This document shows positions 3,192-18,175 of a stretch of 25,578 nucleotides of DNA, piece by piece. The stretch comes from a virus, in IMG/VR virus record IMGVR_UViG_3300043774_000267, positions 1 through 25,578 of that record. One strand, written 5' to 3'. The stretch's first letter is position 1. Each line of letters opens with the position of its first letter. The notes beneath the pieces are model-generated. The model was given only the letters and a program-made list of their open reading frames with translations, searched no databases and was not told the origin of the DNA. A program made the position numbers and the translations under genes.

Positions 3192-3635
3192 ATGGCGACA
3201 GCCCCAGCCCTTACCAAATCCCTCAAAACCCTGTTATCTGACACCGTCACTTTCTACTTCATGGCGCACGGATTTCACTGGAATGTTGAGGGTTCTGACT
3301 TCAGCCAGTACCACGGTCTCTTCGCAGAAATCTATGAAGATGCATATGCGATGATTGACCCAGTGGCTGAGAACATCCGCAAACTGGATGATTATGCGCC
3401 GTTCAATCTTCAGAAGTTTATTGATCTTCGGACACTTGAATTCAAAGAAGTAAGTCCGAATCCTAAGGCAATGTCAACGGCATTGTTGAAGGCTAACGAG
3501 GCGCTGATCACTCAGTTAAATGCCTCATTCAAAGAAGCAAACAAAGCCGACCAGCAGGGTATTGCAAACTTCTTATCCGAGAGGGTTGACAGTCAAATGA
3601 AATGGTCATGGCAACTACGAGCATCGGTTAAGTGA
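3192..3635 (+). CDS. Dps-like ferritin (DNA-protection family)
   Basis: Dps proteins form 12-subunit shells that oxidise and store iron and often bind DNA, shielding it from peroxide. The family signature is clear: HGFHWNVEG, then FSQYHGLFAEIYEDAY, then MIDPVAEN, and a C-terminal SQMKWSWQLRASV. By spacing against E. coli Dps, ligands H51, H63, D78 and E82 correspond to H29, H41, D56 and E60. The D67 position is alanine 45, with a glutamate at 46. The 147-residue length is at the short end of the family, and the N-terminus lacks a long lysine tail. GGAG lies 7 nt before the ATG. It heads a plus-strand cassette inside an otherwise leftward genome, which suggests an acquired accessory gene. Confidence 0.9.
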   Translation: MATAPALTKSLKTLLSDTVTFYFMAHGFHWNVEGSDFSQYHGLFAEIYEDAYAMIDPVAENIRKLDDYAPFNLQKFIDLRTLEFKEVSPNPKAMSTALLKANEALITQLNASFKEANKADQQGIANFLSERVDSQMKWSWQLRASVK

Positions 3636-11965: not shown

Positions 11966-13786
11966 TCAGATTGCGTTGAAATTGAAATGTCTGTGACATA
12001 TATTGTCTGCGGTTGTTTCCGTATAAAACTTAATTATCTTTGAAAATGTTGATTTATCAGAACTACCTGGTTTAGAAATAGTTGCAGAAAAATGTACTTC
12101 AAAGTCCATAAGTATTTTTGTAGTCTTCCAATTATCAGCATTAGAACCTTCTAAATATAATTTGTTGGCAAATAAGTCTGACGCACCTGAATCTTTAAAC
12201 ACATTGTTAGGTCTATTATCGTGACTCGGTATTTTATTTGTATCATCACTTCCATACCTAGCCCATTTTTTCCATTCTTCAAAAGTTGTTGCAGTTGCCT
12301 TTTCTCCCTCAACATTTAATAAAAGAACATCACGAGATACACTGTACTTTTTAGTCCCTGGCCCTATTTTCTGACCTGATGTTGTTTTCTTTTCAGGGTC
12401 AGCATTTGCAAATTCTTTTTCTGTTCCTACAAATTGTCGCCATATTTTAACTTTTGGAGTATGCTCAATTTTTACATCGTATTGCCTTTCAAAGAACAAT
12501 TTAGAAATACCCTTGTAAACTGGTGCATCTCTTGGTCCTGATTTAAGAGTTACAAACCCAGCAACTAGCAAAAAGGTACCATAATGTAATATTTCCCAAA
12601 CATCCTTGTAACCTTTCCACTGTCCGACAGGATTGTATGATTTGTGCTCATCGGGGTCCCCAAAATAAGCAGTTTTAATGAGTTCATCAAATGCAGGGTG
12701 ATCTGAATCGCTAGTACCACCAAGTGCTATTTGGTACATTCCCGAATCTTTAACTGCCTTTACAAGTACATCATAATCAGCACCTTTTTTATCTTCAGGT
12801 AATGTGTCACCACCACCACCACCACCACCAGAGGTTGGCGGTGCGGATTTTATTTTACCTAGTGCTTGTGTTAGGTATGTATCTTTTTGTGCAAATCCAA
12901 TGTATTTTGCTTCAACCGTCACATTAATGGTACACATAGTAGGAACCATTTGAGTACTAAATTTAGTGAAGTTAACAGATGATGATTGAATAAAACCATC
13001 AACCATGAACATGGCTGAGAAAACAATACGAACAGGCGTACTAACTAGAAAAGCACTGTTACCCTTAATTGATTTAAACGCATCAGATGCTACTTGTTCT
13101 GAAATATAATTAGTATTACCAGATGCACCTGATGAAGAGTCCGCAGGTTCCCAGGTACTAGAAACACTGGTAATTTTAGACAGGGCAGAAATAATATCTT
13201 CAGATATACCTTGACCAATAACACTGTCCATAACCATTAGGTCTGCAAGCACACCAATTTGCCCTACATCCTGGGGGCCTGGTGGTTTACCTACATTCTT
13301 ATCCGCTGGCCTGTCTCTGTAGTTTTTCTTATGATTATTAACTTCCATTTCTCGGTTAAGCATGATATCAAAAGAGAAAGTGGCATTACCAGGAGTTGCT
13401 ACTGAGAACTGTCCCGGGTCTTGAAATAGTATGTTTGTCATACCACTAGAAAGTGAGACACTACGCATAATACGCTCAGGGTTAAACTGAAAAAAGAAGC
13501 GTCGGTTAGGGAGACCTTTTGCTGCACTAGTTGGTACTTCATTTAATAAGCACCGCATAAACCCACGCTGTATTTTACTTGCATTTGGAGAAAATAGTCT
13601 TTGATCTCCGTCAAGACCAATATTTCTACGCCTATCCTGCGCTCCAGGTACGACCGAACCCGGGAACATAAACCTAGGGTTGTCGTCAGTAGTGCGAGTG
13701 AAACTATTGTGATTTCCAGGGCCAGTAACTCCATTTTCTAAGTTGTACCACTGGTTTGTTGTATAAGACTCATTTGCCTGTGCCAT
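11966..13786 (-). CDS. Tube-cap / CIS-tube-like protein with long unknown C-terminal region
   Basis: Residues 75-310 resemble the N-terminal domain of contractile injection system tube-cap proteins (Afp7/PVC7 type; T4 gp48/54 role). The blocks are RRFFFQFNPERIMRSVSLSS, then NATFSFDIMLNREMEV, a VGVLADLMVMDS-type helix, and PVRIVFSAMFMVDGFIQSSS with VNFTKFSTQMVPTMCTINVT. These proteins cap the tube end and receive the LysM domain. Here the LysM part is encoded separately next door. After a run of seven glycines (about residues 320-326) comes a lysine-rich region of about 280 residues (to 606) that I do not recognise; its DNA looks more AT-rich than its neighbours. The gene overlaps the tape measure stop (TAATG). 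Confidence 0.75.
   Translation of the reverse strand: MAQANESYTTNQWYNLENGVTGPGNHNSFTRTTDDNPRFMFPGSVVPGAQDRRRNIGLDGDQRLFSPNASKIQRGFMRCLLNEVPTSAAKGLPNRRFFFQFNPERIMRSVSLSSGMTNILFQDPGQFSVATPGNATFSFDIMLNREMEVNNHKKNYRDRPADKNVGKPPGPQDVGQIGVLADLMVMDSVIGQGISEDIISALSKITSVSSTWEPADSSSGASGNTNYISEQVASDAFKSIKGNSAFLVSTPVRIVFSAMFMVDGFIQSSSVNFTKFSTQMVPTMCTINVTVEAKYIGFAQKDTYLTQALGKIKSAPPTSGGGGGGGDTLPEDKKGADYDVLVKAVKDSGMYQIALGGTSDSDHPAFDELIKTAYFGDPDEHKSYNPVGQWKGYKDVWEILHYGTFLLVAGFVTLKSGPRDAPVYKGISKLFFERQYDVKIEHTPKVKIWRQFVGTEKEFANADPEKKTTSGQKIGPGTKKYSVSRDVLLLNVEGEKATATTFEEWKKWARYGSDDTNKIPSHDNRPNNVFKDSGASDLFANKLYLEGSNADNWKTTKILMDFEVHFSATISKPGSSDKSTFSKIIKFYTETTADNICHRHFNFNAI
12808..12830. repeat. Triplet microsatellite coding for poly-glycine
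   Basis: Nearly eight units of CAC on the plus strand, read as GGT glycine codons in the tube-cap-like gene. It marks the joint between the recognised N-terminal domain and the unrecognised C-terminal region. Gain or loss of whole units would only change linker length. Confidence 0.85.
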
Positions 13787-16557
13787 TATGCGTTCCTCAT
13801 ATTCCTTAATCGCATTTCGCGCTCAATAATCATTGTTACCTCACGAGCAATAATCTGTGCGTCAGCCTGCGGATTACCACTTCCGTTTACATTAATTACT
13901 GGTGAGATGTTAAAAGTTGCTCCACCTTGGAAAGTAGCACTTCCACCACTACGGGCAGACCCCATTGCTACAGGGTCACCTGTTTGGGCAGAACTAGTCT
14001 GAGGTATCTTGCGTGACTGAAGCACCTCTGCCATAACCTTGTTGCCACCCCAACCGGAATACATCTTGTTCACGGCTTCTGCGACAGCATAAGGATCGTT
14101 ACTATTATTTGTTAGGGCGTTAATAACACGCTTACCGTAGTTCTGCATATGGAACACATTCATACGGAGACCTTGCTCATAACTAGCAAAGTTCTTTACA
14201 CCTGATCCATCATTATTAAACTTTGACCATTGCCCCAATGCCACATCGGCGGGGTCTTTTGGAGCACTCTTAACAGCCAATGGGTTATACGCCGCACGAG
14301 TACCCTCACTAGCAATCCATGCTGACATGGCTTCTAGGTTTGAAGCAGTCACGGGTGCACCAACACGATTTAAGAAATCAGTAGACCATTGTTGGATGTC
14401 AACACCACTACGGGCCATACCTCCATTAGTAAATGCGCCAGTAAACGCTCCTGATGTACTTGTCGCTGTGCCAACGCCTCGTCGTCGCCGTGGGCTACCC
14501 GAACCACCACTTAGACCAGTAGAGCCAAGGAAACCACTCGCTCGGAACGCAGAGATAGCATCAGCCATGCTCATACCCGCAAAAGATGCAGTAGTTACGC
14601 CTGCGTTAGTTGTACCACCACCTCCGTAAGCACCATCAGTGTGTTCAGTTCTTCCAGATGAGACACCTCCTGATGACATTGGCTCACCACCCCAAGGGCG
14701 GCCCTGCTTTTCGTATTCAGTACGACCATTAGGAAGTTCCGATGGCTGGACATGCCAAGGCTCCCCCATACTTTCAAAGTGCTTCAAACCAAAGCGGGCG
14801 GCATTAGCGGTAACCCAACTCATGTCACCAGTTAAGTCAGCCGCAAGACCAATTTCGTGCATTGAGCGACCAGGGGGAGCGGCTTGAGCACCACTCACAT
14901 GCTCCCAGTAAGAGCCATCCCATTCCCAGTTCTTTTTACCTTCAGCATCCACAGGGCTAGAGGTCTTACGATAACGCGAGCGGAACATAGTTTCTTGGGC
15001 GGCTTTACTACGGTAACCTGTACCCAATCCAACTTTTCCACCAGATGCGGCAATTAGTTGATCCACACGCTGTTGCATGGTAGGGTGCATTTTCCCTGAA
15101 CCACCCGATGTGTTTGGATCACCAGTTTTACCCATTGAGGGTAGATTACGACCAGGACCTGGGTCACCAGCAGCAGGAGCATCCATAGCACCACCGAATG
15201 CAGTTGCAAGACCACCAAGTATCATTAATGGCACACCAACAGCGGCGCCAACACCAGTGGTAGAAATAGCCGCACCAGCCATCATTGCGGCTGGACCTAA
15301 TGCTTTAAGTATACCACCAGTCGCCTTTCGCTGAGGCTTGGTTTCAATAGCCTTACCAACAATTCCTGAAAGCCTATCCTCAAGTCTCCCAAATGCCTGT
15401 TCAAGGCTTTGAGTTGTCTTTTCAAGTTTGGCAAAGTTGTCCTGTTGACGACCATAGAAATCTTCTTCGCGCCCAGTTTTGACGCGCGTGGTTTCTTCAA
15501 TTTGTGTAGCGAAGTTGTCTTCAATACCGACAAACTCCCTCTGAGACTTGCTAGAAGGGTCATACATACCCTTGCCACCCTTAGCACCATACTGCTGGTT
15601 TGCCATTGCATATTGGATAACTATGTCTTGAGTGGCAGAGTCAATACCCATATCTGCTAAGCGGGAACGCGTATTACTACCTTGCTGTAAGGCACCGCCA
15701 GGGTTTCTGAGATTAGTTAAACCTGATGCTCGCGCTAGGTTTTGGATAACTTCAGTACCACTACGCTGACCACCCCCAGGCATATATAGACTTTGACCAG
15801 TCATCATGAACATGCGGTTAGTAGTTTGGGCGCTACCTAAACTAGTAAGCATATTAGTAACACCCTCAGCACCGAGGCTATATCCCGATAGAGCATTTAA
15901 GCCCTCAACAGTGGATGCATTACCAAGAGCACTAATACCAGTAGATGCCTGCATTCCCATTAAGGCATTAATACCATTAGTACCGAGGCGGTAGTTAGTT
16001 AATGGTTGGCGGTAAGCATTACGGACACCAGCATTACTGAGACCAGTAATTTGTTGATACATAACTGACATCTTGTCGGCTGATGATGAATATTCATAAC
16101 CTCGCGCAATACGCGAATCCATTGCCGCAACACCAGCGCCAACCACATTACCAATAGCCATTGCCGCACTCGTGAATGCTCCACCACGACTTTGTTGCAT
16201 TACCTCCATCGCAGACATGCGACGATTACCACCACTTGCGGCTGGATCAAGACTGTAATTAGTGTTACTACTAGTGGTGGATGTTGGACCACTATTAACC
16301 ATTACTGGGTGACCTTGGCTACCCTGAGCAACACCAGTGGTGACACCCCCAATAGCGCCAACATTAAGCCCCTTTAGAGCGGCGGCGGCTTTAGTTCCTT
16401 TGGCAGTAATGGCATCTAATGATCTAGCAACACCAGCAAGAGCAACCGACAATGAAGTTGCCTCCCGTGTCATCTTTGCAAGACGACTTCCTCCGCCAGT
16501 GATTGGGGTAGGGGTAGCGCCATTTCCTGCTATGTTTGGTTCATTTGGCGGTGCCAT
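13786..16557 (-). CDS. Tape measure protein with M15 peptidase and lysozyme-like domains
   Basis: At 923 residues, directly downstream of the tail chaperone, this is the probable tape measure that fixes tail length. After an Ala/Gly/Ser-rich N-terminus come a charged coiled-coil-like region (about 340-405) and a hydrophobic stretch (about 419-458) that could insert in a membrane. Residues about 490-615 are a VanY/M15 D-Ala-D-Ala peptidase: GLGTGYRSKAAQETMF, SMHEIGLAADLTG and GEPWHVQP, giving zinc ligands H567, D574, H602 and catalytic E599. Residues about 715-870 look lysozyme/transglycosylase-like: SAWIASEGTRAAYNPLA with likely acid E751, then FASYEQGLRMNVFHMQNYG. Both would open the cell wall for DNA entry. 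GGAGGG precedes the ATG. Confidence 0.85.
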   Translation of the reverse strand: MAPPNEPNIAGNGATPTPITGGGSRLAKMTREATSLSVALAGVARSLDAITAKGTKAAAALKGLNVGAIGGVTTGVAQGSQGHPVMVNSGPTSTTSSNTNYSLDPAASGGNRRMSAMEVMQQSRGGAFTSAAMAIGNVVGAGVAAMDSRIARGYEYSSSADKMSVMYQQITGLSNAGVRNAYRQPLTNYRLGTNGINALMGMQASTGISALGNASTVEGLNALSGYSLGAEGVTNMLTSLGSAQTTNRMFMMTGQSLYMPGGGQRSGTEVIQNLARASGLTNLRNPGGALQQGSNTRSRLADMGIDSATQDIVIQYAMANQQYGAKGGKGMYDPSSKSQREFVGIEDNFATQIEETTRVKTGREEDFYGRQQDNFAKLEKTTQSLEQAFGRLEDRLSGIVGKAIETKPQRKATGGILKALGPAAMMAGAAISTTGVGAAVGVPLMILGGLATAFGGAMDAPAAGDPGPGRNLPSMGKTGDPNTSGGSGKMHPTMQQRVDQLIAASGGKVGLGTGYRSKAAQETMFRSRYRKTSSPVDAEGKKNWEWDGSYWEHVSGAQAAPPGRSMHEIGLAADLTGDMSWVTANAARFGLKHFESMGEPWHVQPSELPNGRTEYEKQGRPWGGEPMSSGGVSSGRTEHTDGAYGGGGTTNAGVTTASFAGMSMADAISAFRASGFLGSTGLSGGSGSPRRRRGVGTATSTSGAFTGAFTNGGMARSGVDIQQWSTDFLNRVGAPVTASNLEAMSAWIASEGTRAAYNPLAVKSAPKDPADVALGQWSKFNNDGSGVKNFASYEQGLRMNVFHMQNYGKRVINALTNNSNDPYAVAEAVNKMYSGWGGNKVMAEVLQSRKIPQTSSAQTGDPVAMGSARSGGSATFQGGATFNISPVINVNGSGNPQADAQIIAREVTMIIEREMRLRNMRNA

Positions 16558-16559
16558 GA

Positions 16560-16730
16560 CTACCCTCCATTACTTTGCCACCGTGCTAACTTTCCCCAGA
16601 ACAGCCGTTCTCTGACGGGCATGTTCTTTACCTCATTTAAAGAAAATCCTTTGTAGACAGTGGCTATGGAGTTGTATTCCCAGTATATATTATCAATATT
16701 AACCGAATAAAAGTGAGACCCAGTCAAACA
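16560..16730 (-). CDS. Overlapping second frame of the tail assembly chaperone (recoded extension)
   Basis: In the frame one base ahead of the chaperone, an open stretch runs from just after a TGA (16733-16731) to a TAG at 16562-16560, two bases before the tape measure ATG. It reads FYSVNIDNIYWEYNSIATVY, then KGFSLNEVKNMPVRERLFWG and KLARWQSNGG. The 'EVxxMPVRxRxxW' block looks like the C-terminus of T4 gp26/gp51-type baseplate assembly proteins, so I treat it as real coding. A ribosome would reach it by a +1 (or -2) shift between 16730 and 16701, for example at the T4 run 16712-16709. This mimics the E/E' and G/GT pairs before tape measure genes. Starting at TTG 16727, or an indel error, are alternatives. 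Confidence 0.72.
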   Translation of the reverse strand, partial: CLTGSHFYSVNIDNIYWEYNSIATVYKGFSLNEVKNMPVRERLFWGKLARWQSNGG

Positions 16731-17472
16731 TCAATGTAATCTCCTCATTACAGTGTCCGCACGGGGCATTCACCTCCCGAGGACTCGGGCCTACTTTGGC
16801 GTTGAATACTGCACTGATAATGGTAGAACGATCTGCAATGCTTAGATTTCGTGCCCATTGTTCTTTATTAGTAACATCAATCTGAGCGCAACGGGCGATC
16901 ATCATGGTGTTTTGTTGCGCTGTATTTTTACCTGAACGACCAATCTTGGCGCTGTCATCTGAGTTGGGGTGATTCAAGTTAAGTGTTGAACCATCCCTGA
17001 GGATAACTTTGATTTGCTTGCGGACTGACTCTTGATCTCCCTCAATTGGGAAGTCAGAGTTCAGGTCAATAAGTAAATCGTTTGATTGATTGCAATGTGG
17101 GCACGAAACTTTGAATTCTCGCGTTTCGCCGTATGTAGCGCGAATAACTGCCAAGAATAGTAAGTCACGATCTCCAATAATCAACTCGTTGAGAACTACT
17201 GGAGTTTGCTTAATTGAGATATCACCAATTGATACAACAACGCGCTTCAACAAGGCAAGTACATACTCACCATAGTTAGAAGTTGTTCGGGCTTCCATAC
17301 TGGAGAGGAATTCTTCATCCTCACCAGTCATCTCCCGGACGATTGCATTTGTAACCCAATCACTTCCTATTTTAATTCCACGAATAAGTTCAACACCCGT
17401 ATTGGGTGACTTAGGCATGGTTGGCGCGCTCTCCATAGAGATAGCGTCAAAACTTTGGACATTTGTTGTCAT
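16699..17472 (-). CDS. Tail assembly chaperone / gp26-like protein with split zinc site
   Basis: A 257-residue soluble protein between tail tube and tape measure, the canonical place of tail assembly chaperones (P2 gpE, lambda gpG). It looks like the T4 baseplate-protein family of gp26/gp51: GRDLLFLAVIRATYGE-type central helix written here as IIGDRDLLFLAVIRATYGET, then FKVSCPHCNQSNDLLIDL. A second CxxC comes near the end, VNAPCGHCNEEITLMFDW. Cysteines C124/C127 and C238/C241 probably form one zinc site. It likely coats the tape measure until tube assembly. AAGGAG precedes the ATG. Its last codons overlap an open second frame that carries the rest of the family's C-terminus. Confidence 0.8.
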   Translation of the reverse strand: MTTNVQSFDAISMESAPTMPKSPNTGVELIRGIKIGSDWVTNAIVREMTGEDEEFLSSMEARTTSNYGEYVLALLKRVVVSIGDISIKQTPVVLNELIIGDRDLLFLAVIRATYGETREFKVSCPHCNQSNDLLIDLNSDFPIEGDQESVRKQIKVILRDGSTLNLNHPNSDDSAKIGRSGKNTAQQNTMMIARCAQIDVTNKEQWARNLSIADRSTIISAVFNAKVGPSPREVNAPCGHCNEEITLMFDWVSLLFG

Positions 17473-17524: not shown

Positions 17525-18175
17525 TCAGACTGCGACTGGGGTTGTGGTTGGGGTTGAAGTTGCGGGTTCGTTAGTTGGATTCCAGTTAATTTCAAAACCT
17601 TCATGGTTAACCGTCATCTGCTGGATCATGATTGAACTATTACCAGCGTTGAGGTCACCTAATGCATAGCCAGCGGGCCATGCATTATAGATTGTGAATT
17701 CAAGTTTCTTATTACCAGGAGAGATAACACGACCCAATGACCCTGGGTCCTGTGAATAACCAGCATTACCAGAACTATCTGCTGCTGCTGCTGTGAATGG
17801 GTGGTCATAAACAGTAACAATAATGTTACAACGGTAATCATTACGGCTACCAGTACTACCAGCATCATCAGCAAGAGCACCTTGAGTCCAAGAATGCATG
17901 AATTGCTGCCAGCGCCACAATTGGTCTTGTCCTTCAAACACGCCACGACTGAAGGTAATGGGGTTAAAGTCTGACTGACCAATCATCTTGTGTGGATGGG
18001 TATTCATACCACCTTCACGATAAGGGATCATTTCGTTAGTAACGCTTAGTCCAGTAACAACGGCAAAACCAAGATTACCAATGTTCGGGGTAGCGGTTTC
18101 CAAAATTCCCGTTGGGACAATCTTTACCGTGAACTTAAAGTCACGCAATGGATCGGTACGAGTTAATACTGCCAT
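17525..18175 (-). CDS. Tail tube protein, gp19 family
   Basis: Subunit of the inner tube through which DNA leaves the particle. The T4 gp19-type signature is clear: PLRDFKFTVKIVPTG at the start, GLSVTNEMIPYREGGMNTHP, then HKMIGQSDFNPITFSRGVFE and LWRWQQFMHSW. It closes with KKLEFTIYNAWPAGYALGDL and MTVNHEGFEINW. An insertion DPGSLGRVISP sits on one loop. At 216 residues it is slightly larger than the T4 protein. AAGGAGAAACATG gives a strong start. It follows the sheath gene after 8 nt, the normal sheath-tube pairing. Confidence 0.93.
   Translation of the reverse strand: MAVLTRTDPLRDFKFTVKIVPTGILETATPNIGNLGFAVVTGLSVTNEMIPYREGGMNTHPHKMIGQSDFNPITFSRGVFEGQDQLWRWQQFMHSWTQGALADDAGSTGSRNDYRCNIIVTVYDHPFTAAAADSSGNAGYSQDPGSLGRVISPGNKKLEFTIYNAWPAGYALGDLNAGNSSIMIQQMTVNHEGFEINWNPTNEPATSTPTTTPVAV

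Follow-up and report, generated by a model that had tools for sequence, protein, structure and literature searches.

The tail assembly chaperone gene in IMG/VR virus record IMGVR_UViG_3300043774_000267 (positions 1 to 25,578; this whole stretch of 25,578 nucleotides [nt] is called the window below) very probably yields a long form of its product through a programmed +1 ribosomal frameshift, a reading to which the comparison of related sequences gives a probability of about 0.9. The open reading frame (ORF) runs on the minus strand from 17472 to 16699 and ends with GAC TGG GTC TCA CTT TTA TTC GGT TAA. When reading moves one base forward after CTT, the sequence continues as TAT TCG GTT AAT ATT GAT ..., contains FSLNEVKNMPVRERLFW, and ends at TAG 16562-16560, which is followed after 2 nt by the ATG of the tape measure gene at 16557. 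The upstream TGA of the extension frame lies at 16733-16731, and the overlap of the two frames is open from 16730. An earlier note on this DNA had placed the frame-0 stop TAA at 16701-16699, the TAG 2 nt before the tape measure gene, and the opening of the second frame at 16730, and had pointed to a run of four T residues in the open overlap and a GAGGAG 28 nt before it. All of this holds, the run lying at 16712-16709 and GAGGAG at 16746-16741. The elements of the proposed frameshift are the following.

16699 to 17472, minus strand: frame-0 ORF of 257 amino acids, the short form of the tail assembly chaperone (gp26-like), with the C terminus DWVSLLFG* (PF12322, phrog_150, and AlphaFold2 model)
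16711 to 16713, minus strand: slip codon CUU (P site), with proposed +1 re-pairing to UUU (CTT in 38/38 clusters of the lineage)
16708 to 16710, minus strand: A-site codon UUA (always UUA or CUA in the lineage; rare in GC-rich relatives)
16699 to 16701, minus strand: frame-0 stop UAA, the fourth codon after the slip codon (read from the sequence)
16560 to 16709, minus strand: +1-frame extension (YSVNIDNIYWEYNSIATVYKGFSLNEVKNMPVRERLFWGKLARWQSNGG), 49 codons plus TAG (kept in all relatives; ratio of nonsynonymous to synonymous polymorphism [pN/pS], 0.17; three predicted helices)

Conservation of the second frame

Searches of IMG/VR gave 71 loci for the window protein and at least 545 relatives for a profile, 80 of which were kept; the window's lineage was designated group A and a sister lineage group B. 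Codon counts were made on clusters formed at <85% nucleotide identity. The site, together with an extension in the +1 frame, was kept in 196 of 197 loci (150 distinct sequences). In the complete loci of group A, frame 0 ended in ...DW/NWxxLLxx* and the +1 frame was open, with the conserved motif ...YWxYxxIAxxYxGFxLxDIRxMSVRQRxFWxxMAKWR. The median pN/pS of the extension region (124 pairs) was 0.17 in the +1 frame versus 1.49 and 1.80 in the other two, which indicates clear purifying selection on the +1 reading and leaves practically no room for a sequencing error or a decaying gene.

The earlier note had assigned the extension to the +1/-2 frame and not to the usual -1 frame, and the relatives bore this out: the -1 frame was closed in the window's lineage, and no -1 slippery heptamer (X_XXY_YYZ) with a -1-frame extension was found, the extension being in the +1 frame. 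The note had also named a miscounted T run and relatives lacking the second frame as grounds for abandoning the idea. Both were looked for. Many independent metagenomes, as well as isolate genomes of the sister lineage, contained loci with the identical frame break, CTTCTA lineages without any run of four T residues still carried it, and the second frame was open and conserved in essentially every relative. Phages of the window's lineage were also found on two contigs binned as Acidobacteria and Pacearchaeota metagenome-assembled genomes, bins that may mislead on the host.

Group B comprised the Streptomyces myophages BRock, LuckySocke, pSt2308, and GiJojo, a Nonomuraea contig, and approximately 80 IMG/VR loci. 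Their arrangement was that of the window, with frame 0 mostly ending in ...LF(R/Q/L)xx* and a related extension in the +1 frame. The GenBank records of the four Streptomyces phages give a short ORF and no frameshift; three of them list a small hypothetical ORF as an additional entry, and the BRock genome announcement mentions no frameshift. The UUU_C site in these records suggests one frameshifted gene instead of two ORFs.

Slip site and probable direction of the shift

The group A site reads CTT_(T/C)TA. CTT was found in 38 of 38 clusters against a codon usage of 0.21, and the ten other conserved leucine columns in this group used all six leucine codons. The A-site codon was TTA in most members, even where TTA makes up ~1 to 6% of leucine codons, and was otherwise CTA (about a quarter of the cluster heads). 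The group B site reads TTT_C, with TTT in 44 of 44 clusters versus 19% of phenylalanine codons. Many group B members read UUU_CGN exactly; other C-starting A-site codons were CAG, CUC, and CCU. The slip codons of the two groups occupied equivalent places near the end of frame 0. Chance figures for the invariant slip codons were 3e-26 and 9e-33, values that are only indicative because the clusters were treated as independent.

After a +1 move, UUU re-pairs perfectly with UUC, and CUU re-pairs with UUU or UUC via G-U pairs only. Influenza PA-X and the amalgaviruses shift +1 at UUU_CGN (PMC5052127), and CUU is the slip codon of the prfB +1 frameshift (PMC10885494). Because the +1 move re-pairs well in both groups, a -2 move leaves mismatches in the CUA members and in group B, and UUU_CGN and CUU are known +1 sites, the shift is most likely in the +1 direction, as judged from re-pairing and the invariant codons.

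Other signals were sought around the site. No clear enrichment of an internal Shine-Dalgarno (SD) sequence of the release factor 2 (RF2) type was detected near the slip codon (anti-SD pairing within 16 nt upstream, -3.9 versus -2.9; standard deviation, 3.1), and no stimulatory structure was detected downstream in 60- and 90-nt windows (mean z score, about 0). Two large contigs of the window's lineage contained no phage-encoded tRNAs bearing on the rare A-site codon, and there were no plasmid matches. Transcriptional slippage was rejected, as the run has only four T residues and is absent from the CTTCTA members.

In the proposed mechanism, the majority of ribosomes would terminate at UAA 16701-16699 and release the 257-amino-acid short form, the equivalent of T4 gp26. 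Some ribosomes, holding peptidyl-tRNA-Leu on the P-site CUU while the A site presents a slowly decoded UUA or CUA, would move one base forward, pair with UUU or UUC, and complete a 303-amino-acid long form, the equivalent of T4 gp51, ending at the start of the tape measure gene. The same forward move would take place at UUU_C in the sister lineage. The short and long forms may then act in a set ratio during tail assembly, as lambda gpG and gpGT do.

Identity of the chaperone and its relation to T4 gp26 and gp51

The short form matched PF12322 (T4_baseplate, gp26/gp51) with an E value of 1.4e-15 and 58 bits, against a curated cutoff of 24.5, and phrog_150 (baseplate hub) with an E value of 5e-16. 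The latter match ended at profile position 162, and that of the long form reached position 264 of 282. Since T4 gp51 covers positions 13 to 280 of this profile and T4 gp26 covers positions 14 to 235, the long form reaches into the part covered by gp51 and not by gp26, which favors the extension as a gp51-like C terminus.

The short form and the extension were modeled separately by structure prediction. The AlphaFold2 model of the short form had a predicted local distance difference test (pLDDT) score of 88, and its BFVD matches were baseplate hub proteins of the gp26/gp51 type (best E value, 2e-28), including gp26 of Aeromonas phage 25 (E value, 9e-7); it had no match in the PDB. The extension was modeled as three helices (pLDDT, 80), and nothing significant was found for it in the PDB or BFVD.

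The genes on both sides are those expected for a chaperone of this kind.

17525 to 18175, minus strand: tail tube gene (T4 gp19 family), directly upstream of the chaperone gene (PF06841; E value, 1e-22)
13786 to 16557, minus strand: tape measure gene, directly downstream of the chaperone gene (the usual neighbor of a tail assembly chaperone)

The chaperone gene thus sits between a gp19-type tube gene and a tape measure gene, as do frameshifting chaperones of the G/GT type. Given the PF12322 and phrog_150 matches, these neighbors, and the model match, the ORF was assigned to the T4 family of tail assembly chaperones. The end of the short form coincides with the end of T4 gp26, and the C terminus of T4 gp51 aligns colinearly with the extension. 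The earlier note had described the extension as the missing C terminus of the family; its position and the extent of the phrog_150 match toward T4 gp51 speak for this, whereas the extension taken alone gave no significant match. A gp51-type C terminus is therefore favored by position and profile extent, in a segment that appears too diverged to be matched by itself.

T4 uses two genes for the short and long forms. In contrast, each of eight records of 66 to 112 kb from the lineages studied here, some of which may be fragments, held one PF12322 copy, and no separate long-form gene of the T4 arrangement was found in them. One frameshifting gene thus appears to do the work of the T4 genes for gp26 and gp51. 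Distant PF12322 relatives in large phages, including Pseudomonas phage Paride (near 4238) and three others (L066, L067, and L069), carried U_UUU_UUC before the frame-0 stop and an extension in the -1 frame. On these sequences, the family appears to use three solutions, namely, two genes, a -1 shift, and a +1 shift.

In many relatives, the stop of the extension and the start of the tape measure gene share bases (TAATG). Shifted ribosomes would end their translation at this start, and coupling between translation of the long form and that of the tape measure protein is possible. The tape measure protein of the window contained a VanY-like D-Ala-D-Ala carboxypeptidase domain (PF02557; residues 491 to 578; E value, 1.4e-5). 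A Ferritin/Dps-like protein was encoded at 3192-3635 (PF00210; E value, 2.5e-15) on the strand opposite to the structural genes.

Predicted upstream hairpin and SD-like element

Two candidate stimulatory features were located upstream of the slip codon.

16709 to 16777, minus strand: predicted mRNA hairpin, with 5' arm 16777-16770, 16767-16764, and 16762-16761 and 3' arm 16724-16723, 16721-16718, and 16716-16709, the slip codon included (shuffles and pairing)
16770 to 16777, minus strand: GGAGGUGA, an SD-like element (GAGGUG at 16776-16771) forming the 5' end of the hairpin (invariant codons)

GAGGUG lies ~60 nt upstream of the slip codon, behind the hairpin. Its codons were invariant across the window's lineage (GAG in 44 of 44 and GTG in 45 of 45, versus usages of 0.46 and 0.24). 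The GAGGAG at 16746-16741, which the earlier note had offered as a stimulator, is present in the window and was not conserved in relatives.

The 60-nt window ending at the slip codon folded more stably than dinucleotide shuffles, with mean z scores of -2.4 and -2.5 in the two lineages. Because the region is coding, synonymous-codon shuffles that keep the protein were also used. With these, the mean z score was -1.8 in group B (62% of 48 cluster heads below -1.65), where values elsewhere in the gene were about 0, down to -1.05 next to the site, and -2.5 in group A (76% of 45 heads), where values elsewhere in the gene were somewhat raised too (-0.3 to -1.3, with -1.5 as the lowest value overall), so that the raw score overstates how unusual the hairpin is in this group. 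When the E and P sites were excluded, the z score was still near -1.9.

In group A, 94% of cells in the stem 16777-16761/16724-16709 were paired, compared with 38 to 65% when the stem was slid. On the tree, the central helix 16767-16764/16721-16718 kept its pairing in all nine inferred changes, and two outer variable pairs kept theirs through nine changes. Synonymous sites were frozen in two islands, GAG GTG x GCC CCG and GTC TCA CTT TTA, which correspond to the two hairpin arms, and were freer between them. The group B hairpins fell between the invariant GAG codon and the E site. A consensus fold had no common register over the whole of group B, so the support for the hairpin of that lineage comes only from the shuffle test.

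Refolding of a hairpin upstream of a +1 site stimulates +1 shifting on 70S ribosomes (PMC6321510) and in yeast (PMC3639245). It is plausible that the upstream hairpin and GAGGU(G), located behind the E site, stimulate the shift in a manner similar to the RF2 internal SD duplex or to engineered refolding hairpins, a proposal that stands apart from the frameshift finding itself. We give roughly an even chance to a wider proposal, that the two lineages share a natural class of +1 signal composed of GAGGU(G), a hairpin with a 3' arm reaching to the E site, and a YUU_Y slip codon. The hairpin would re-form behind the ribosome, or would bring the SD-like element to the E site, and so pull the mRNA one base forward.

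Alternative explanations

The same extension could be reached by a -2 shift, in which tRNA-Leu slides from UUA two bases backward onto UUU and the long form gains one residue. The final frame is identical to that of a +1 shift, the UUA of the window can re-pair with UUU, as the earlier note had proposed for the run of four T residues, and -2 shifts are documented for the tail chaperones of phage Mu (PMC5009743). The relatives nevertheless make this improbable: in members with CUA, the -2 partner UUC leaves a mismatch, and the UUU of the sister lineage would land on UGU with a central mismatch. The third base of CUU, which is silent in frame 0, is invariant, as suits +1 re-pairing, and the sequence after the site showed none of the structure that drives backward shifts. 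Still less likely is that the second frame forms a small gene of its own, unfused to the chaperone and reached by ribosomes that terminate and reinitiate. Annotators of the Streptomyces relatives called such an ORF, and some relatives have TTG or GTG near the frame-0 stop. However, in the window and many relatives the first ATG, GTG, or TTG of the +1 frame is the conserved Met codon 30 of the extension. A ribosome restarting there could not produce the conserved part that precedes it, which is more than the N-terminal half, and reinitiation would give no reason for the invariance of CUU_YUA or UUU_C ahead of the stop. A sequencing error or a decaying C terminus has a negligible probability; a run of four T residues is an error-prone place, but the break recurs in independent metagenomes, in isolates of another lineage, and in sequences that lack the run, and the extension is under purifying selection.

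Several observations weigh against the +1 shift as described or against its proposed stimulator. A distant relative (L226) carries UUU_UUC and not UUU_C, and a hidden Markov model of the extension alone gave no signal against T4 gp51 above that of shuffled sequences. Within the hairpin, pair 14-72 (column numbering) breaks repeatedly and is unsupported, and pair 24-63 breaks seven times and is mixed; to these is added the raised background in group A. The hairpin and GAGGU(G) could instead have another role, such as protein-coding constraint or mRNA stability, with no effect on a frameshift that would itself stand. This is a real, if less favored, possibility: both arms encode parts of conserved protein motifs (EV..PC..C and DW.SL), several of the pairs show no variation, and the raised background together with the protein constraint on both arms calls for caution. 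Set against it, the shuffles that preserve the protein still gave their strongest z scores here, synonymous variation is suppressed in the arms relative to the stretch between them, and the feature is common to both lineages.

Comparison with known systems

Most long-tailed phages slip one base backward in the tail chaperone gene. The lambda gpG/gpGT system, whose kind of frameshift was reportedly treated by Xu, Hendrix and Duda in 2004 (cited in PMC5009743), resembles the present one in the location of the gene between tube and tape measure, the short form with a low-level extended form, the frameshift at the 3' end, and the conserved second frame. It differs in that lambda shifts -1 at a slippery sequence, whereas the present long forms, which belong to the T4 gp26/gp51 family, would arise from a +1 shift at CUU_YUA or UUU_C. 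T4 gp26 and gp51, reportedly described as tail assembly chaperones of T4-like phages by Vladimirov, Gautam and Davidson in 2022 (cited in PMC10885494 and PMC12846349), belong to the same family (PF12322 and phrog_150), and the long form likewise has an extra C terminus, but T4 has two genes in place of one frameshifted gene. Instead of a frameshift, certain T4-like phages have one gene for a short chaperone and another for a long one (PMC10885494), and frameshifted tail chaperones have been called widespread among long-tailed phages "except T4" (PMC5009743). The present sequences indicate that, within T4's own chaperone family, hundreds of uncultured phages and the Streptomyces isolates may obtain the short and long forms from a single gene through a forward shift. 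If so, they would bridge the two known solutions, two genes and a frameshift, and would supply a large natural data set on forward slipping of bacterial ribosomes. The idea that structure behind the ribosome promotes +1 shifts could also be put to the test on these natural sequences, and the upstream architecture would be a natural counterpart of an effect, stimulation by an upstream hairpin, that has been demonstrated up to now in engineered constructs.

Chaperone frameshifts and +1 sites are each known already; as far as the literature consulted goes, what appears to be new is their combination with the T4 chaperone family, with these slip sites, and with the upstream architecture. A conserved -1 shift at GTTTTT in the tail chaperones of Vandenendeviridae and Andersonviridae myophages was likewise found by comparative genomics (PMC12846349). 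The tail chaperone of the archaeal myovirus HSTV-2, described as "very likely +1" (PMC5009743), is similar in the proposed +1 shift. The influenza PA-X and amalgavirus site UUU_CGN (PMC5052127) shares the UUU-to-UUC slip with the sister lineage, although those are eukaryotic RNA viruses and the phages described here are bacterial double-stranded DNA phages. The prfB (RF2) site CUU_UGA has in common with the window the slip of CUU to UUU and a duplex behind the E site as a stimulator, here a candidate one; it differs from the present site, which has a sense codon (UUA or CUA) in the A site, an upstream hairpin, and a stop four codons after the slip codon.
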